Source: Chloroflexota bacterium (lineage in GTDB: Bacteria > Chloroflexota > UBA11872 > VXOZ01). From it: a stretch of 40,440 nt of DNA. The stretch lies in contig JAAXIC010000012.1 in NCBI GenBank assembly GCA_012270555.1, positions 1 to 40,440 on the forward strand, given 5' to 3'. Under the pieces are notes generated by a model. The model was not told where the DNA came from and did not search any database. It saw only the letters and a program-made list of their open reading frames with translations. This document shows, piece after piece, positions 22,984 to 37,427 of the stretch (positions are counted from its first letter, which is position 1; each line of letters begins with the position of its first letter). The position numbers were made by a program, and so were the translations under genes.

Positions 22984-24399
22984 CTAGCGGCGGCGGAACA
23001 CGTGCACTGCGCGACGGTCTACGTCCCACGAGGCTTCCATGATTGCCTCCGCGAGGGTGGGGTGGGGATGGACGTTGAGGCCGACTTCCAGGGGTGTTGC
23101 CTCCAGCAGTTGCGCCAGACCCATCTCAGCGACGATGTCCGTGGCGTTGGGGCCGATGACGTGCGTGCCCAGAATCTCATCGGTTTTAGCGTCACAGACT
23201 ATCTTGACAAAACCTTCGGTCTGCCCCTTGATGAGCGCCTTGCCGAGCGCGGCAAAGGGAAAGCGGCCTACTTTCACGTCCTTTCCCTGCGCGACAGCTT
23301 CCTCTTCCAGCAGACCGACGCTGGCGATCTCCGGACGGCAGTACGTGGCGCGAGGCACCCGCATGGGATCCAGCGGATGGGTCTCCTCACCGGCGAGATG
23401 TTCTATGACCACGTGTCCTTCAGCGGTGGCTTTGTGAGCAAGCAAAAAGCCACCCGCGACGTCGCCGATAGCGTAGACGTGAGGCACGTTCGTGCGGCCA
23501 TACCCATCAACCGGAATAACACCTTTCTCTGTCTTTACTCCAACTGATTCCAGGCCGAGGTCTTCCACGTTGCCGGTGCGGCCAACGGCCACCAGCAGCA
23601 TATTTGCTTGCAGGGATTCCCGTTCGTCATCCACCTCGATCTCTATGGCGATCGCATTCTCTTCGGTTTTTAGGCTTTCCACCAGCAGTCGGGCACCCGT
23701 TTTCACTGTTATGCCGCGCCTGGTGAAAGAGCGACCCAGCTCTTTGCCGATGTCCTTGTCTTCCAACGGCACCAGCGTCGGCATGATCTCGACCACCGTC
23801 ACTGCCACGCCAAAGTCGTGGAAGAGACTCGCCCATTCCACTCCCACTGCTCCCGCTCCCAGGATGACGATTGACTCCGGGAGTGCCGTCAGTTCGAGCG
23901 CGTGGTCGCTGCTGATCACGGTTGTGCCGTTGAGCTCCAGTCCGGGCAGGCTGCGCGGTCGCGACCCGGTCGCGATGACGATGTCTTTAGCGCGGAGGTC
24001 ATGGCCGCCGTCGCTCCCTTCCACGTACACTGATTGAGACGACGTGAGGGTTCCATTCCCAAAGAAGACGTCCACTTTGTTTCTTTTGAGCAGGCCTTGC
24101 ACGCCTTTGTGGAGTTGCGCTACCACCTGGGATTTACGGTCGAGCACTTTCCCGTAGTCAAAGGTGACGTCCGGCGCGACGACGCCAAACGCTGCGCTCT
24201 CATCGCGGGCATGGTGCAGGTGCTCGGCAGATTCGAGCAGGGCTTTGGTAGGAATGCAGCCTTTGTGGAGACAAATGCCGCCGAGTTTCTCTTTCTCCAC
24301 CACTGCCACCCTGAGCCCAAGTTGCGTGCCGCGAATGGCGGCAGGGTAGCCCCCGGGCCCACCGCCAATGATCACAACGTCATATGAATTCTCTGCCAT
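22984..24399 (-). CDS. lpdA: Dihydrolipoyl dehydrogenase (E3)
   Basis: The 471-residue flavoprotein reoxidises the lipoyl groups of the PDH E2 and passes electrons to NAD. It has FAD-binding DVVIIGGGPGGYPAAIRG, the redox disulfide Cys43-Cys48 in GGICLHKGCIPTK, the NAD-binding VILGAGAVGVEWASLF, the second flavin segment VPHVYAIGDVAGG, and the catalytic His in LNVHPHPTLAEAIMEA at the dimer interface. Two ATGs, 24408 and 24399, are in frame. The AAGGA sequence is too close to the first and suits the second. It follows the E2 gene on the same strand after 177 bases holding a hairpin. Confidence 0.96.
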   Translation of the reverse strand: MAENSYDVVIIGGGPGGYPAAIRGTQLGLRVAVVEKEKLGGICLHKGCIPTKALLESAEHLHHARDESAAFGVVAPDVTFDYGKVLDRKSQVVAQLHKGVQGLLKRNKVDVFFGNGTLTSSQSVYVEGSDGGHDLRAKDIVIATGSRPRSLPGLELNGTTVISSDHALELTALPESIVILGAGAVGVEWASLFHDFGVAVTVVEIMPTLVPLEDKDIGKELGRSFTRRGITVKTGARLLVESLKTEENAIAIEIEVDDERESLQANMLLVAVGRTGNVEDLGLESVGVKTEKGVIPVDGYGRTNVPHVYAIGDVAGGFLLAHKATAEGHVVIEHLAGEETHPLDPMRVPRATYCRPEIASVGLLEEEAVAQGKDVKVGRFPFAALGKALIKGQTEGFVKIVCDAKTDEILGTHVIGPNATDIVAEMGLAQLLEATPLEVGLNVHPHPTLAEAIMEASWDVDRRAVHVFRRR

Positions 24400-24519
24400 A
24401 GCGCTCATTTCCTTATAGGTGTGCCGATCTGTCAGTGGTACTTATTCCAAGATATTTGTCTGGTCTCATGCAATGCACACTACCTTCATCTTGCCGAATG
24501 CACTGTAGAGGAATCAAAT

Positions 24520-24576: not shown

Positions 24577-25809
24577 TTAGATCAGCAGGTTGTAGGGATT
24601 CTCCAGGAGATCCTTCAGGTCGCGCAGAAACTCGGCAGCGGGCGCGCCGTAGAGAATGCGGTGATCGGCGGAGATGCTGAGGTACATGATGTCGCGCACC
24701 ACGATTTCGCCGTCGCGCACCACGGGGCGCGGCTCGATGCCGCCGACGGCAATGATGGCGGATTGGGGCGGATTCACGATGGCGTAGAAGTCACGCACGC
24801 CGAACATTCCCAGATTCGAGACGGTGAACGTGCCGCCTTCTAAATCGCCGGGCCGATTCTTGCCTTCTCGGGTGCGCTCGACGAGCACTTTCGCTTCCAC
24901 GGCAAGTTGACGGAGCGGTTTGGTGTCGCAGTTCTTGAGCACGGGGACCAGCAGGCCGTTGGGCACGGCCACGGCAATGCCGATGTTCGCCTCTTCATGG
25001 TAGACGAAACCGCCGTCCTGGTAGGAACCGTTTGCATCCGGATGCCGCATGAGCGCCATGGCAGTGGCTCTGATGACGAGATCGTTGAAGCTGATTCGTT
25101 CTTCTTCGCTCCACGCGGCGTTTACTTCTGCGCGCATGGCCTTGGCGGCGCTCATGTCCACTTCCAAAGTGAGGTAGAAATGCGGCACCGTGGTCTTGCT
25201 CTCGAGCATGCGCCGCACGATTGTCGCCTGCATACGCGAGAGTGATGCCACCTCTGACTCACTTGGCATTGCCGTGGGATCATCGGCCACGGCAACCTCG
25301 CGCGCTGCTTTTTCAACATCATCCTTGACGATGCGGCCGCCGGGGCCGGTGCCTTTAATGCGCGAGAGATCGAGTCCTTGTTCGTCCGCTATGCGGCGCG
25401 CGAGCGGCGACGCCTTTATGCGTTTGGTGGCCCCTTGTGTTCGTGCTGCGTCGGCAGGTTGGCCAGCGGTGGTGGTTGCGGTCGCGCCGTCGGTGACCGC
25501 GTCGCCTTGGGCGGCATCGTCTGTCGCGGGCGCGGTTGGAGCGGCTACGGCAGCCTCTGTACCGACTTCGCTCTCATCGCCAACCAGCGCAATCGGAGCT
25601 CCCAAAGCCGCCGAACCACCTTCTGCTACGAGAAGCTGAAGCAGCGTGCCCTCCTCAACCGATTCGAGGTCCATTACGGCCTTGTCGGTCTCGATCTCGG
25701 CGAGCAATTCACCCTTCTTTACGCTGTCACCTACCTGCTTGTACCACTGGAGGACTCTCCCTTCCTCCATGGTGTCGCTGAGCCGGGGCATGGGGACTTC
25801 GCGTGCCAT
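24577..25809 (-). CDS. pdhC: Pyruvate dehydrogenase E2, dihydrolipoamide acetyltransferase
   Basis: The 410-residue protein is the core of the PDH complex. One lipoyl domain (residues 1-78) carries the lipoylated Lys43 in EIETDKAVMD. An Ala/Thr-rich linker follows, then the E1/E3-binding domain (KASPLARRIADEQGLDLSRIKGTGPGGRI, split near 132-160). The catalytic domain begins near residue 190 with LSRMQATIVRRMLES. The active-site motif near the C-terminus reads SADHRILYGA: His383 is present, but the Asp of the usual DHRxxDG is Tyr387. AGGAG lies about nine bases before the ATG. It is 27 bases downstream of pdhB. A branched-chain or 2-oxoglutarate specificity cannot be fully excluded, but the E1 sequences favour pyruvate. 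Confidence 0.93.
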   Translation of the reverse strand: MAREVPMPRLSDTMEEGRVLQWYKQVGDSVKKGELLAEIETDKAVMDLESVEEGTLLQLLVAEGGSAALGAPIALVGDESEVGTEAAVAAPTAPATDDAAQGDAVTDGATATTTAGQPADAARTQGATKRIKASPLARRIADEQGLDLSRIKGTGPGGRIVKDDVEKAAREVAVADDPTAMPSESEVASLSRMQATIVRRMLESKTTVPHFYLTLEVDMSAAKAMRAEVNAAWSEEERISFNDLVIRATAMALMRHPDANGSYQDGGFVYHEEANIGIAVAVPNGLLVPVLKNCDTKPLRQLAVEAKVLVERTREGKNRPGDLEGGTFTVSNLGMFGVRDFYAIVNPPQSAIIAVGGIEPRPVVRDGEIVVRDIMYLSISADHRILYGAPAAEFLRDLKDLLENPYNLLI

Positions 25810-25836: not shown

Positions 25837-26814
25837 CTAGTGGCCCAGGGTCGCCCGAACTGCGTCTGCGATCTTCTCCGGGCTGGGAATCACCGCTTGC
25901 TCCAAGGGTTTGGAGTAAGGCATCGGTACTTCCACGCCACCGACGCGTTCGATGGGGGCATCCAAGTAGTCGAATGCTTCTTCGTAGATGGTGGCGGCAA
26001 CCTCGGCGTTCACGCCAAAGGAGCGATGCTCTTCTTCCGCAATGACGCAGCGGTTCGTCTTCTGCACGGAGTGAACGAGCGTCTCCGCGTCGAGCGGACG
26101 GATGCTCCGCAAGTCGATGACCTCTACGCTGATGTCCTCTTCGCTCAGTTGCGCGGCGGCTTGCAGCGCATAGAGCACCATGCGCGAGTGGGCGATGAGG
26201 GTAACGTCGCTGCCCGCGCGCTTGATGTCCGCTTCGCCAAAAGGAACCGTATGCTCGCCTTCCGGTACCACGCCTTTGGTGTTGTAGAGAGCGAGATGCT
26301 CCAGAAACATGACCGGGTTGTCGTCGCGAATAGCGGTCTTAAGCAAACCCTTGGCGTCGGATGGCACAGACGGTGCCACTACCTTCAAGCCGGGAATGTA
26401 GGCGAACCACACGTCGAGACAATGCGAGTGCTGCGCGGTAAGCTGCTGACCGCCGCCGCCGGGAGCGCGAATGACCATGGGGCACTTGAGCCGGCCGCCG
26501 AACATGTAGCTGATCTTGGCGGCATGGTTCGCGATTTGGTCCATGGCTACCATGCCGAAATTGACGGTCATGAGTTCGACGACGGGCCGTAGACCCGTCA
26601 TCGCCGCGCCCGCGCCTAAGCCGACAAAGCCCTCTTCCGCAATCGGTGTGTCGATGACGCGCTTTTCGCCAAACCTATCCAGCAAGCCCTCGGTGACTTT
26701 GTACGCGCCCTGAAAGACGCCGACCTCTTCGCCCATGACGAAGACGTCCGGGTCTTGGTCCATTTCCTCGATGAGGGCGTCGCGCAGGGCTTCACGGTAG
26801 GTGATTTCCGCCAT
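25837..26814 (-). CDS. pdhB: Pyruvate dehydrogenase E1 component, beta subunit
   Basis: The 325-residue protein pairs with E1 alpha to decarboxylate pyruvate with thiamine diphosphate. Family segments are ITYREALRDALIEEMDQDP, VFVMGEEVGVFQGAYKVTEGL with the cofactor-contacting Glu, VIDTPIAEEGFVGLGAGAAM, and RAPGGGGQQLTAQHSH in the active-site region. The C-terminal transketolase-like domain holds VEVIDLRSIRPLDAETLVHSV. The length is usual. Its start is 58 bases downstream of the small coiled-coil gene; GGAG lies about 11 bases before the ATG. Confidence 0.95.
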   Translation of the reverse strand: MAEITYREALRDALIEEMDQDPDVFVMGEEVGVFQGAYKVTEGLLDRFGEKRVIDTPIAEEGFVGLGAGAAMTGLRPVVELMTVNFGMVAMDQIANHAAKISYMFGGRLKCPMVIRAPGGGGQQLTAQHSHCLDVWFAYIPGLKVVAPSVPSDAKGLLKTAIRDDNPVMFLEHLALYNTKGVVPEGEHTVPFGEADIKRAGSDVTLIAHSRMVLYALQAAAQLSEEDISVEVIDLRSIRPLDAETLVHSVQKTNRCVIAEEEHRSFGVNAEVAATIYEEAFDYLDAPIERVGGVEVPMPYSKPLEQAVIPSPEKIADAVRATLGH

Positions 26815-26872: not shown

Positions 26873-27172
26873 CTATCGCGGTAGCCATTCCAGCGCGAGA
26901 AGCACTGCAATAACTAGTCCGGCTGCAGCAAAAACGTAAGCGCCAAGGTGCAGCCGCATGCGCAGTTCCAGTTCATTCAGGTCGGCTTTGGTGGTAAGTG
27001 CCAGTTCTCGCAGGTCGGCTTTGGTAGCTTGCGCCAGTTCATTCAGGTCGGCTTTGGTCGCGAGGGCGTCGTGAGAGTCGCCCATCGCGTCAAGCATGGC
27101 CTCCGCTTTCGTCTCACTGAAACCCGCCGCTGTGAGCGTCTTCATCGCTTTGTACGTGTCATAGACTGCCAT
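26873..27172 (-). CDS. Small coiled-coil membrane protein inside the pdh operon
   Basis: The 99-residue protein lies between the two E1 genes, starting three bases after the pdhA stop. Its N-terminal third has TAAGFSETKAEAMLDAM, a small helical unit. Residues 38-70 are three 11-residue repeats, ATKADLNELAQ, ATKADLRELAL and TTKADLNELEL, expected to form a coiled coil; at DNA level they share a core on the 33-base period between about 26970 and 27060. A single membrane helix follows (residues 77-95, YVFAAAGLVIAVLLALEWL), leaving almost nothing outside. The pattern resembles the DUF1640/CCDC90-like class of small membrane-anchored coiled coils, whose bacterial role is unknown. A link to PDH is inferred only from position. 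Confidence 0.75.
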   Translation of the reverse strand: MAVYDTYKAMKTLTAAGFSETKAEAMLDAMGDSHDALATKADLNELAQATKADLRELALTTKADLNELELRMRLHLGAYVFAAAGLVIAVLLALEWLPR

Positions 27173-27175
27173 AGC

Positions 27176-28228
27176 CTACGCATCCTCTGCATACACGAAC
27201 TTTTCTAATTCGGCCACGTCAGGATAGGGACTCCGCTCGGCAAAGTCCACCGCCGTTTGCACCTTTGCCAGGACAGCTTCTTCAATGTCGTCGGCGTCTT
27301 TCTGCGTGAAGATCTCGCCCTCGAGCAGGCGTAGGCGGAAACTCTCCACCGGGTCGCGTTCGCGCCACTCGTCGATTTCATCTGCGGTGCGGTAGTTCTT
27401 GCCCGCGTCCGCCATGGAGTGGCCGCGATAGCGATAGGTCACGCATTCGACGAAGATCGGCTCGCTCGTGCGGCGCACTTCCTCTACCAGCTTCTTCGTG
27501 AGTTGGTAGACCGCCAGCACGTCCATGCCATTAACTTTGTAGCCGGGAATGTCGTAGGCCACGCCCTTCTTCCACAATTCGGTTACGGCGGAAGCACGCG
27601 CCACGCTGGTACCCATACCGTATTGGTTGTTGGTGCAGATGAAGAGATTTGGCAGCTTCCACAGTGAGGCAATGTTGAGTCCTTCATGGAAGGCGCCAAT
27701 GTTGGTCGCGCCATCACCGAAAGTTGACATAACGATCTCGTCAGTGCCTCGGTATTTGATGGCAAAAGCAACACCCGTGGAGAGTGGGATGCTGCCGCCG
27801 ACGATGCCGTAGCCGCCCATGAAGCGGCGTTCGGGGTCGACCAGATGCATCGAGCCACCACGGCCTTTTGCGCACCCGTCGCGCTTGCCGAACAGTTCCG
27901 CCATAACGGTACCATGTGGCAACTGACGGACTATCGCGGAACCGTGCACACGGTAACTGCCGAAGAAGTAGTCTTCGTCTCTTAACGCTTTGAGCGTGCC
28001 GACAACGGTGGCCTCTTCGCCAATGTTGAGATGGCAATAGCCGCCGATTTTGGCACGCAAGTACATTTCCGCCACGCGCTCTTCAAAGCGCCTGACGTAG
28101 AGCATGCTCGTATAGAAATCGATGAGTTGGTCGTTGCCGTAATTGGCAAGATCGCCGGAGTCTCGCACCGGGAGCTCCATGTCCGTCACCTGGTCTGCGG
28201 GTTTATCGTGCGCGTCGCTTCGGCTCAT
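27176..28228 (-). CDS. pdhA: Pyruvate dehydrogenase E1 component, alpha subunit
   Basis: The 350-residue protein holds the thiamine diphosphate motif, GDG at 171-173 and NN at 200-201, in GDGATNIGAFHEGLN and FICTNNQYGMGTS. Other marks are YCHLNIGEEATVVG, KGRGGSMHLVDPERRFMGG, and YRYRGHSMADAGKNYRT in the loop that in mitochondria carries the regulatory serines. It is the first gene of the order pdhA, small coiled-coil gene, pdhB, pdhC, lpdA. On the minus strand AAGGGGGG lies about seven bases before the ATG. A copy of the CTTCGACAAGCTCAG repeat stands just upstream of that ribosome binding site, inside what should be the untranslated leader. Confidence 0.96.
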   Translation of the reverse strand: MSRSDAHDKPADQVTDMELPVRDSGDLANYGNDQLIDFYTSMLYVRRFEERVAEMYLRAKIGGYCHLNIGEEATVVGTLKALRDEDYFFGSYRVHGSAIVRQLPHGTVMAELFGKRDGCAKGRGGSMHLVDPERRFMGGYGIVGGSIPLSTGVAFAIKYRGTDEIVMSTFGDGATNIGAFHEGLNIASLWKLPNLFICTNNQYGMGTSVARASAVTELWKKGVAYDIPGYKVNGMDVLAVYQLTKKLVEEVRRTSEPIFVECVTYRYRGHSMADAGKNYRTADEIDEWRERDPVESFRLRLLEGEIFTQKDADDIEEAVLAKVQTAVDFAERSPYPDVAELEKFVYAEDA

Positions 28229-28600: not shown

Positions 28601-29062
28601 ATGCTCGCTGTGGTGCAACGCGTGCGTGAAGCGCGCGTAGATGTTGGCGAAAAGACGGTCGGAGCCATCGGTCAAGGACTCGTGGCGCTTATCGCCGTAA
28701 AGTCCGGCGACTCGTCAGACGCCGCGGACTACATTGCAACCAAGCTCACCACGCTGCGCATCTTTGGTGATGACGCGGGCAAGATGAACCTCTCCGTGCA
28801 GGAGGTCGGGGGCGCGGTGCTCGTGGTTTCGCAGTTTACGCTCTACGGCGAGACGCGCAAGGGCCGCCGGCCGAGCTTTACCAAGTCCGCCCGGCCGGAG
28901 GAAGCGGAACCGCTGATCGAGCGAGTTATCAGCTATTTGCGTGACCGGGGAATCACCGTCGCGTGCGGCGAGTTTGGGGCGATGATGCAACTCGCGCTTG
29001 TCAACGACGGGCCGGTGACCATTATCCTCAATTCGGACGACCGCGACACCCCGCGTCGGTAG
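28601..29062 (+). CDS. dtd: D-aminoacyl-tRNA deacylase
   Basis: The 153-residue protein removes D-amino acids (and Gly from tRNA-Ala) from mischarged tRNA. It starts with the family MLAVVQRVREARVDV and shows the two active-site motifs SQFTLYGETRKGRRPSF (near residues 77-93) and GAMMQLALVNDGPVT (near 126-140), the latter with the cross-subunit Asn-x-Gly-Pro element. Length is usual. AGGG lies eight bases before the ATG. It is divergent from pdhA and ends before a hairpin terminator. Confidence 0.96.
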   Translation: MLAVVQRVREARVDVGEKTVGAIGQGLVALIAVKSGDSSDAADYIATKLTTLRIFGDDAGKMNLSVQEVGGAVLVVSQFTLYGETRKGRRPSFTKSARPEEAEPLIERVISYLRDRGITVACGEFGAMMQLALVNDGPVTIILNSDDRDTPRR

Positions 29063-29201: not shown

Positions 29202-33773
<4,572 letters not shown>

Positions 33774-33923: not shown

Positions 33924-36900
33924 CTACTCGTGATGCTCGCGACCCTGCAGGTTGATGCCGCCAAGGTCGGGCAGGCCTTCCGTTTCGCCTTCTTCGGGGA
34001 AGCGGATCTCCTCCTCGTTCTCATTGAGAACTTCTACCGCCAGGGCGAGACTCTGGAGCTCTTTGACGAGCACCTTAAAGGACTCAGGTATGCCCGGCTG
34101 GAGGACTTCTTCCCCTTTGACGATTGCTTCGTAGGTCTTAACACGGCCGTGCACGTCGTCGGACTTGACCGTGAGCATCTCTTGCAATGTGTACGCGGCG
34201 CCGTAGGCTTCCAAGGCCCAGACCTCCATTTCGCCAAAGCGCTGGCCGCCAAACTGGGCCTTGCCGCCCAGGGGCTGCTGCGTAATGAGCGAGTAGGGGC
34301 CGGTGGAGCGCGCGTGCACCTTGTTTTCAACCAGGTGGGCAAGCTTCAGCATATACACCCAACCGACGGTCACTTCTTGGTCGAACGCTTCGCCCGACCG
34401 GCCGTCGTAAAGCGTTGCCTTGCCGCTGCTGGGCAGTTCCGCTGATTCTAACTCGTCCTCGATTTCGCTCTCTAGCGCGCTGTCGAAGACCGGCACGACT
34501 GCTTGGTAGCCGAGTTCGTGGGCCGCCCAGCCCAGGTGCGCTTCCAGAATCTGACCGAGGTTCATGCGCGAAGGCGCGCCGAGCGGGCTCAGTACGATGT
34601 CTACCGGCGTGCCGTCGGCGAGATGCGGCATGTCCTCAACGGGCATGATGCGCGCAACCACGCCTTTGTTGCCGTGGCGTCCGGCCATCTTGTCCCCGGC
34701 CATGAGCTTGCGCTTCGAAGCTACGGAGACCCGGACCATCTCATTGACGCCGTTGGACAACTCGTCGCCCAGGTCCTTGTTGAACGTGTGCACGTCCACG
34801 ACTTTGCCGTGCTCGCCGGCCGGCATGCGCTTCGACGTGTCTTTGACATCACGGGCGTCTTTGCCAAAGATGGCGCGCAAGAGCCGGTCTTCGCCGGTTA
34901 GGTCCGTTTCGCCCTTGGGCGTGACCTTTCCTACCAGGATGTCATCGGGATGAACTTCCGCGCCGACGTAGATAACACCGTTCTCGTCCAGGTTGCGCAG
35001 GGCCTCTTCGGCAACGTTAGGAATGTCGCGCGTGATTTCTTCGGGCCCGAGCTTGGTGTCGCGAGCCTCGCACTCGTACTTCTCCACGTGGACGGATGTG
35101 AAGAGATCGTCCTGCACGACGCGGTCGCTGATGATGATGGCGTCCTCATAGTTGCCACCTTCCCAGAACATGAAAGCGCACAGGACGTTCTGTCCAAGGG
35201 CAAGTTGCCCGTTGTCCGTCGAGGAGCTATCCGCCAGCGGTTGACCGGCCCCCACGCGCTCGCCTTTGCGCACGATGGCGCGCTGATTGAAGCACGTGGC
35301 CGCATTTGTGCGCTCGAACTTCTTAAGCGGGTAAACGTGCTCGTTGCCGTCATCACCCAAGAGGCGGATTTCGCGGGCCGTGGCGCCGCTGACAATGCCG
35401 TCAACGTCGGCGCACAGCACCTGGCCGGAATCTTCCGCCGCTTTCCACTCCATGCCGGTGGCTACCAGCGGCGCTTCCGGCGTAAGGAGCGGCACGGCTT
35501 GCCGCTGCATGTTGGCGCCCATCAACGCCCGGTTTGCATCATCGTGCTCCAGGAACGGAATGAGCGACGTGGGCACGCTCACGATCTGCTTGGGCGAGAC
35601 GTCCATGATGTCGATGCCATCGGGGACCTCTTGGAGGAACTGACCGCCCGCGCGGCAAGCTACCCGATCCTCGAGGAACTCGCCAACGTCGTTCACCCGG
35701 GCATTGGCCTGGGAGACGATGTACATGTCCTCCTCGTCTGCCGAGAGGTAGGTGACGCCGTCGGCGTCCATGCTGGCAAAGGGACGCACGGGGATTTCCA
35801 TGCCCTGCAGTTTCGCCTTCTTGAGCGCCGCAATCTCCGTTTCTGAAATCACAGCGCCGGACGCAATGACTACTTTCTTCCCTTTGGTAACGTCCGCGGA
35901 CACGGTGTGGCCGATAAGTTTGGCGCCATCACCCTCGAACGTGAGGGATTTGAGCACGCGGCGGTACGGCGTCTCGATGAAGCCGTACTCATTGACCCGT
36001 CCGTAGCTGGCAAGGCTGCCGATCAATCCAATGTTCGGGCCTTCCGGCGTCTCGATAGGGCAGATTCTGCCGTAGTGCGAGTAGTGCACGTCGCGCACGT
36101 CAAAGCCCGCGCGGTCGCGGGAGAGGCCGCCCGGTCCCATGGCCGAGAGGCGGCGCTTGTGGCCCAACTCGGACAGCGGATTGGTCTGGTCCATGAATTG
36201 CGAGAGCTGGCTGCCGCCAAAGAACTCGCGCACGGCGGCAACTACCGGCCGGGTGTTGATAAGGGCCGCCGGCGTCACCGTGGCCGGATCCTGCAACGTC
36301 ATGCGCTCTTTGATGACACGCTCCATGCGCAGCAGGCCGATGCGGAATTGGTTCTGCAAGAGTTCACCAACGGCGCGTACCCGCCGGTTGCCCAAGTGGT
36401 CGATGTCGTCCGGCGGATTCTGCGAATTATTCAGTTCGATGAGCCGGCGTACGATGTAGACGAGGTCTTCCGGCGTCAGTGTGCGCACTTCCGGCGGGGT
36501 GGGCATGGCGAGGCGCTTGTTGAGCTTGTAGCGTCCCACGCGCCCCAGGTCGTAGCGCCGACCATTAAAGAACGTAGAGTCGATGAGATTCTTGGCGTTA
36601 TCCAGAGTGACCGGATCGCCGGGCCGGATGCGCTTGTAGACCTCGCGCAGGCCGCTCTCATGCGAATTCGACGGGTCGCGCCGCTGCGCGCCGTCTTGGC
36701 CGCCGATGGTAGTGGCGATATACGGGTGATCGGCGTTGGTATCTACTTCATGGAAAAGGTCGTACACTTCGGAATCCGTACCGTAGCCTACGGCCCTCAG
36801 AAGGGCCGTGACCGGAATGGTGCGGCGTTTGTCCACCTTAACAGTAAGAATGTCCTTGGCGCTGGTCTCGAACTCCAGCCACGCTCCGCGGTTGGGAATG

Positions 36901-37427
36901 AGCTTGGCGCTGTAGAGAAAGCGGCTGCCAGACGGGTCTTCCCGCCGGGTATAGTAGACGCCGGGCGAGCGCACCAACTGGCTGACGACGACGCGCTCAG
37001 TGCCGTTATAGATGAACGTGCCGGAACTGCTCATAAGCGGAAAATCGCCCATGAACACGGTCATTTCCTTGATTTCACCAGTCTGTTTAATGAGCAGCTT
37101 CGCCCTCACCCGAAGCGGCGATTGGTACGTAAGGTCACGTTTGCGGCATTCGTTTTCATCGTAAGGCGGCCTGTCGAACGGCGTATCCGGCACTTCGAAA
37201 CTCAGCTCGAAGTTCTTGCCGGTGAAGTCCTCGATGGGCGAAATCTCGGCAAAGACTTCGCGCAGCCCGTCGGTCTGGAACCAGCGGAAGGACCGCATTT
37301 GGAGTTCTATCAGGTCAGGTAGCGGTAATATCTCCGGCAATTTGCCATAGTTGCGTTGCTCGCGTCCTGCGGACGAAGTCGGCGTCCCGTGGACGAAGTC
37401 ATGCAAGGCGTTACCGCTTATGGCCAT
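33924..37427 (-). CDS. rpoB: DNA-directed RNA polymerase beta subunit
   Basis: The 1167-residue protein is the second-largest polymerase subunit. After an unusual N-terminus the family sequence begins [21 protein letters not shown] near residue 27. The rifampicin-binding region (residues 405-434) reads [17 protein letters not shown] then [14 protein letters not shown], with the residues typical of sensitive enzymes. [34 protein letters not shown] and [19 protein letters not shown] mark the active-centre and C-terminal clamps. The ATG is preceded by AGAGAGGAT. Residues 9-22 (within [15 protein letters not shown]) are encoded by two 20-base hairpin repeats, and the stop codon is contributed by another repeat. 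rpoC follows. Confidence 0.98.
37362..37401. repeat. Two 20-base hairpin repeats inside the rpoB 5' coding region
   Basis: GCGTCCTGCGGACGAAGTCG and GCGTCCCGTGGACGAAGTCA match at 17 of 20 positions; both fold as CGTCC-NNN-GGACG. They are related to the units at 33843-33880 read on the minus strand, which have lost one base pair from the stem. Confidence 0.8.

Follow-up and report, generated by a model that had tools for sequence, protein, structure and literature searches.

A CCDC90/DUF1640-type coiled-coil gene between pdhA and pdhB of a Chloroflexota bacterium and its dispersed copies in one genus

The window, that is, the whole stretch of 40,440 nucleotides of Chloroflexota DNA that was analysed, contains a pyruvate dehydrogenase (pdh) operon in which the genes for both E1 subunits, E2 and E3 form one minus-strand run according to Pfam. 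Upstream of the operon, positions 28601-29062, 29202-33773 and 33924-37427 were occupied by genes that we take to be dtd, rpoC and rpoB. The operon, together with an additional small gene between the two E1 genes and the parts of its product, was composed of the following features:

22984 to 24408, minus strand: E3 dihydrolipoyl dehydrogenase (Pfam Pyr_redox_2 and Pyr_redox_dim; role presumed from the operon)
24577 to 25809, minus strand: E2 dihydrolipoyl acyltransferase (Pfam)
25837 to 26814, minus strand: pdhB, E1 beta (Pfam Transket_pyr and Transketolase_C)
26873 to 27172, minus strand: CCDC90/DUF1640-like gene encoding 99 aa, located between pdhA and pdhB (PF07798, 3.5e-6, 27.4 bits, under the gathering score of 33.5)
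26891 to 26947, minus strand: predicted single C-terminal membrane helix, residues 76-94 (Kyte-Doolittle 19-residue mean of 2.5)
26963 to 27061, minus strand: stalk of three 11-residue ATKADL... repeats (Tandem Repeats Finder and sequence; each resembles a published beta-layer motif)
27065 to 27172, minus strand: predicted N-terminal helical-hairpin head, residues 1-36, with the signature D-T-[HY]...GF...[QK]AEA (AlphaFold2 helices; genus profile against the CCDC90B head in 6h9m, E 9.7e-4)
27176 to 28228, minus strand: pdhA, E1 alpha (Pfam E1_dh, 1.3e-88)

The intercalated gene was a real ORF of 99 codons with an ATG start and a TAG stop. It was separated by 3 bp from the pdhA stop codon (27176-27178), and its own stop codon lay 58 bp from pdhB, which starts at 26814. 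A sequence-only reading of the window had described a 99-residue gene three bases after pdhA whose product carried three exact-length 11-residue repeats and one C-terminal membrane helix. This description was borne out in each respect by the ORF coordinates, by a 33-bp tandem array encoding residues 38-70, and by the hydropathy profile.

The three repeats were ATKADLNELAQ (residues 38-48), ATKADLRELAL (49-59) and TTKADLNELEL (60-70), and Tandem Repeats Finder reported the array with a period of 33 bp, 2.9 copies and a score of 127. In CCDC90/DUF1640 proteins, the motif [aliphatic]-A-T-K-[polar]-[DE] is described as a beta-layer marking the start of the C-terminal stalk (excerpt of PMC4786415). 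The segment L-A-T-K-A-D at residues 37-42 agreed with this motif at all but one of its six positions, the fifth being A where a polar residue is called for, and two further T-K-A-D units followed in the stalk at 11-residue spacing. AlphaFold2 modeling of the single sequence as a monomer gave a helix at residues 3-15, a turn, and a helix at residues 20-95, with a mean pLDDT of 74 and a pTM of 0.29; a Foldseek search with this model ranked 6h9m first, without significance (E 1.4). The hydropathy maximum of 2.5 was located at residue 76, and a C-terminal hydrophobic stretch exceeding 1.6 was present in 83 of the 90 family ORFs or pieces described below. Basic residues directly precede the membrane helix, so that by the positive-inside rule the N-terminus is probably cytoplasmic.

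Evidence for the family assignment came mainly from comparison of the copies as a group. While the protein by itself (P0001) stayed below the PF07798 gathering cut-off, a paralogue from the same genome (G000:C25) scored 34.0 bits, PF07798 was found by 23 of 27 aligned family members (best 2.3e-12), and matches above the cut-off occurred in 13 of 41 genomes of the class. A profile built from the genus family matched human CCDC90B (6h9m) at 9.7e-4 across head and stalk and the structure 6h9l at 6.3e-4 over the repeats, the latter being matched at E 0.035 by the 99-aa protein alone. An NCBIfam search returned nothing meaningful. On these profile matches, the protein belongs to a known family, CCDC90/DUF1640 (MCUR1 type).

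A spacer containing a 33-bp tandem repeat might happen to be open without coding for anything, and both the repeat and its location between two genes would suit such an origin. However, when the copy in the genome of the window (G000) was compared with its counterpart at the same site in a second species (G005), 50 synonymous and 8 nonsynonymous changes were counted over 88 codons, and the two differed in length by exactly 11 codons in frame. dN was 0.039 with dS saturated, compared with a dN of 0.085 for the flanking gene. Judged by this substitution pattern, the intact pdh copy is under strong protein-level constraint. Given this selection between two species and the many homologues, including the 90 homologous ORFs or pieces, the ORF is not a product of chance. 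The non-coding reading was therefore rejected, and we regard it as hardly credible.

A search of the genome of the window with the 99-aa protein gave 21 matches at E <= 1, which merged to about 13 family loci. Six genomes of the same genus together contained 90 family ORFs or fragments of disrupted ORFs, with 13 distinct loci in G000, 14 in G002, 16 in G003, about 20 in G004, 15 in G005 and 7 in G001, the last number applying to an assembly that is 69% complete. The near-complete sister genomes thus carried 14-20 loci each. Tandem duplicates were also seen, with two family copies between miaA and dapF in G002 (L134:4443-5281) and two adjoining copies in G003 (L079:3935-4547). Among 301 genomes sampled evenly across the phylum, the family was detected at 1e-5 in 21, all in the same class, and at least 13-16 matches per genome were found in this genus only, its counts in this survey being lower bounds, since up to 14 candidates were scored in each genome. 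In a neighbouring genus (class genomes G013-G024), several longer CCDC90-like open frames were observed, many of 160-390 aa.

The copies were located behind or between genes of unrelated function. In the 10-kb surroundings examined in G000, and in similar stretches elsewhere, they were found at argD-argG, miaA-dapF, an Rrf2 regulator (sufR)-sufC, ribE-ribBA and pdhA-pdhB, with further copies at two ABC-2 permeases, moeA, ispG (GcpE), nadA, gyrA and nusG and upstream of dnaG. Family models confirmed the identity of argD, argG, miaA, dapF, Rrf2, sufC, ribE, ribBA and moeA, and likewise of GcpE/ispG, gyrA, dnaG, nadA and nusG. One more copy follows a gene that is presumably glyS, so named from its sequence and without a family match at 1e-20. 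Orientation was counted for 77 intact copies, after 13 of the 90 rows (fragments, weak matches to the tail alone and the second members of tandem pairs) had been left out. The conserved gene upstream within 450 bp was on the same strand in 55 cases, on the opposite strand in 1 and unclear in 21, the unclear cases reflecting the simple length rule by which neighbour ORFs were picked; downstream, the corresponding numbers were 45, 8 and 24. The background among neighbouring gene pairs was 84:44 same to opposite (Fisher p 1.7e-7), in a control drawn from these same neighbourhoods and not from whole genomes. No report of family copies in operons was found in the searches of open-licence papers. 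What is known here is the family, of which the protein is a new member, and the surprising part is the genomic arrangement, with apparent serial spread of the ORF alone into operons.

At the pdh site itself, the comparison covered the five species of this genus that have pdhA, and the gene was intact in two, decayed in one and absent in two, including the nearest relative. The intact copies were those of G000, with three repeats, and G005, with two repeats and 88 aa, while the reading frame of the G003 copy was interrupted by frame changes and stop codons. G004, whose pdhA was the closest (96% identical), lacked the gene and had pdhA and pdhB joined by TAG-GC-ATG; G002 likewise had a short pdhA-pdhB spacer and no copy. 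In the sixth genome, G001, no pdhA was detected at 1e-60, and a pdhB-like match was 46% identical. The first seven bases, ATGGCAG, are common to the 99-aa gene and to pdhB of G003 and G004, so a deletion between two repeats of this kind could account for the absence in G004. Moreover, the pdhB leader GGAGCACAAGA was common to G000, G003 and G005 and lacking in G004, which makes loss in G004 appear more likely than late gain elsewhere.

Beyond the genus, a pdhA match at 1e-80 was present in 18 of 41 class genomes, 13 of them outside the genus. In 12 of these 13, pdhB adjoins pdhA, and the thirteenth locus ends 75 bp after pdhA; the family model found a match at the pdh locus in 0/13. The statement of the sequence-only reading that PDH E1 genes are normally adjacent therefore holds for these same-class genomes. 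It had further proposed a survey of pdhA-pdhB spacers in relatives and had named, as the outcome speaking against its interpretation, absence from the site in all close relatives combined with many copies elsewhere. The many copies elsewhere were found; absence was seen in G002, G004 and all 13 genomes outside the genus, but the same site is occupied by an intact gene in G005 and a decayed one in G003.

Comparable turnover was apparent at other sites. The sufR-sufC copy was intact in G000 and G004, reduced to a truncated remnant in G001 and absent from G002, G003 and G005. The ribE-ribBA copy was intact in G000, G001, G004 and G003, the last with a different stalk and tail, and absent from G002 and G005. 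At argD-argG, intact copies in G000 and G003 were accompanied by a frame-broken copy in G004, a decayed copy in G002 and absence in G001 and G005. For rows of at least 70 aa, including two decayed arg copies and with position labels partly assigned by hand, a head found its best match in another genome at the same site in 57 of 64 cases, and a tail did so in 52 of 64. Positions are therefore mostly inherited. On these comparisons, the copies move slowly, and they may to some degree have functions specific to their sites. A deviating case was the G003 ribE-site copy (L082), whose head was 0.90 identical to an ABC-permease-site copy and whose tail was 0.94 identical to that of a copy from a different site in G004 (L101), compared with 0.78 and 0.42, respectively, to the other ribE-site copies. 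This looks as if one copy had been replaced by, or had recombined with, another.

One explanation of the arrangement is that every copy holds the enzymes encoded around it at the membrane, with the pdh copy tethering E1 or the PDH complex as the sequence-only reading had suggested. The codirectional and close placement 3 bp after pdhA, the strong purifying selection on the pdh copy and the usual resemblance of same-site copies would all suit an operon-specific tether, and the eukaryotic relatives MCUR1 and Put6/Put7 are described as acting on mitochondrial complexes or metabolism (excerpt of PMC7519068). However, of the five genus members with pdhA-pdhB, three lacked the pdh copy or retained it in decayed form, and the suf, rib and arg copies were likewise patchy. 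The heads also appeared not to be partner-specific, the pdh head being 0.88 identical to its own orthologue and still 0.78 and 0.82 identical to copies at other sites, and the sites include gyrA, nusG and dnaG, without evident need of a membrane tether. Because copies at a given site were lost or decayed and heads were shared between sites, the tether was dropped as the leading reading. A role in the PDH complex was thus not supported, since sister species keep pdhA-pdhB without the gene, and we consider operon-specific tethering quite unlikely.

Constraint was not confined to the pdh site. Over 78 same-site pairs, with 11 rows left out, the median omega was 0.13 (71 finite values), compared with 0.10 (70 finite values) for flanking genes. 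When 76 same-site pairs were compared with their flanks at fourfold sites, divergence was significantly lower in 10 and higher in 2 (p < 0.01), in a test from which 12 rows and pairs with few sites were left out and whose 76 pairs are not independent; at one site, for example, the copy differed at 2/50 fourfold sites and the flanks at 144/290. These values suggest that some copies were exchanged between species. At L078 and L115 (G003-G005) and at L070 and L130 (G000-G001), the copies were near-identical while the flanks differed at 28-50% of fourfold sites, a pattern that suggests recent interspecies gene exchange. At the pdh site, recent exchange was rejected, as fourfold divergence of the copy (27/45) was not below that of the flanks (269/572, p 0.12).

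Similarity between copies at different sites ended with the ORF. In 270 alignments of 224 pairs, with seven position labels left out (tandem duplicates and positions judged over-merged by automatic clustering), none reached further than 20 bp upstream of the start codon or 10 bp downstream of the stop codon. It follows that the ORF itself is the unit that spread, unless similarity in the flanks has been lost over time. No recurring enzyme gene, terminal repeats or target duplications were found beside the copies examined, and a classical insertion element was rejected on these grounds. Further relatives were present in 2 plasmid records, in 10 IMG/VR contigs and in 5 phage records, the last all from Bordetella avium phages at 37% identity. 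In one of these phages, the relative was located near antirepressor genes (L180:3495-3881), and this neighbourhood gave no lead on origin. A phage or plasmid origin was considered and set aside, as relatives of such identity do not point to a vector.

These observations raise the alternative of a selfish element consisting of the ORF only, tolerated behind codirectional genes and selected for its own persistence. Homology confined to the ORF, patchy occupancy with decay and clean loss, the fourfold-site excess of less diverged pairs as a sign of interspecies exchange, and the protein relatives in phages and IMG/VR contigs would be expected of such an element. Yet no transposase, ends or target duplications were found, the DNA of copies at different sites was mostly only 72-82% alike, so that movement is not recent, the protein has been under long-term purifying selection, and the fourfold-site signal comes from pairs that are not independent. 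A purely selfish element is, in our estimation, unlikely.

The reading that we favour, and consider fairly probable, is that of a genus-expanded group of membrane-anchored coiled-coil stalks dispersed among operons and sharing a function, with the pdh copy as a passenger. It is preferred because the two expectations for a PDH tether, co-occurrence with pdhA-pdhB in near relatives and a head specific to its partner, were not borne out and because the constraint is stronger and longer than would be expected of a purely selfish element. In this Chloroflexota genus, a CCDC90/DUF1640-type family would have multiplied and come to occupy gaps in numerous unrelated housekeeping operons, with copies gained and lost site by site. 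The protein would oligomerize through its repeats into a stalk, with its helical head in the cytoplasm and its C-terminus anchored in the membrane, and would be translated from the transcript of the resident operon. Rather than each serving the neighbouring enzymes, the partly redundant copies would share one general function, most likely that of a membrane-proximal scaffold or adaptor, and use the resident operons for expression; by analogy with the eukaryotic relatives MCUR1 and Put6/Put7, such a role is proposed for the family. The gene between pdhA and pdhB would then probably ride along in the pdh operon as a passenger, without being part of pyruvate dehydrogenase. The sequence-only reading had offered an inserted passenger as its other option, and this fits the many dispersed copies, the dozen unrelated operons, the absence in the nearest relative and the decay in another. 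Counting against the favoured reading are the mostly stable positions of the copies, the lack of any mobile signature beside those examined, the sub-cut-off PF07798 score and non-significant Foldseek match of P0001, and the constraint on the pdh copy, which is more conserved than the flanking gene (dN given above) and thus strongly constrained for a passenger. A more specific version, in which interchangeable membrane scaffolds of MCUR1/CCDC90B stock disperse as bare ORFs, borrow operon transcription and have their stalks changed by 33-bp units, is put forward tentatively and remains doubtful.

With 13-20 copies, natural losses and repeat-length variants, the genus offers ready comparisons for the roles of head, stalk and anchor. 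The nearly always codirectional spread of an ORF alone into operon gaps would be an unusual way for a gene family to expand and calls for a mechanism. For the pdh operon, the case indicates that presence in a textbook operon does not by itself make an unexplained gene part of the pathway.

CCDC90/DUF1640 proteins have an oligomeric head-neck-stalk-anchor structure, and we know of no established role for bacterial MCUR1/CCDC90 members. The 99-aa protein resembles the known members (PF07798; MCUR1, CCDC90B, yeast Put6/Fmp32 and Put7) in its D-T-H...GF...QAE head, which aligned with that of CCDC90B, in A-T-K-x-D at the start of the stalk, in its coiled coil and in its one C-terminal membrane helix. 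Unlike MCUR1, CCDC90B, Put6 and Put7, it is shorter, its stalk is built from 11-residue repeats in variable number, and its family reaches a dozen or more copies per genome in unrelated operons. The structure 6h9l, solved as an "Uncharacterized protein" and presumably the prokaryotic homologue from the study of Adlakha et al. 2019, shares ATKxD repeats at the same 11-residue spacing but is matched weakly, as given above. Of the eukaryotic members, MCUR1 is described as a scaffold of the uniporter and yeast Put6/Put7 are placed in proline metabolism (excerpt of PMC7519068).

As far as we know, the nearest bacterial analogue may be the Bdr group of Borrelia. Bdr proteins contain repeats and vary in length, and we know of no Bdr gene in a housekeeping operon. 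As in the bacterial CCDC90-like family described here, they are multi-copy paralogues associated with the inner membrane, and the excerpt of PMC10016077 gives them no known function; unlike the present genes, theirs are located on plasmids and prophages (same excerpt). A protein of Borrelia miyamotoi is annotated as DUF1640 (excerpt of PMC6856195); it is presumably a Bdr.
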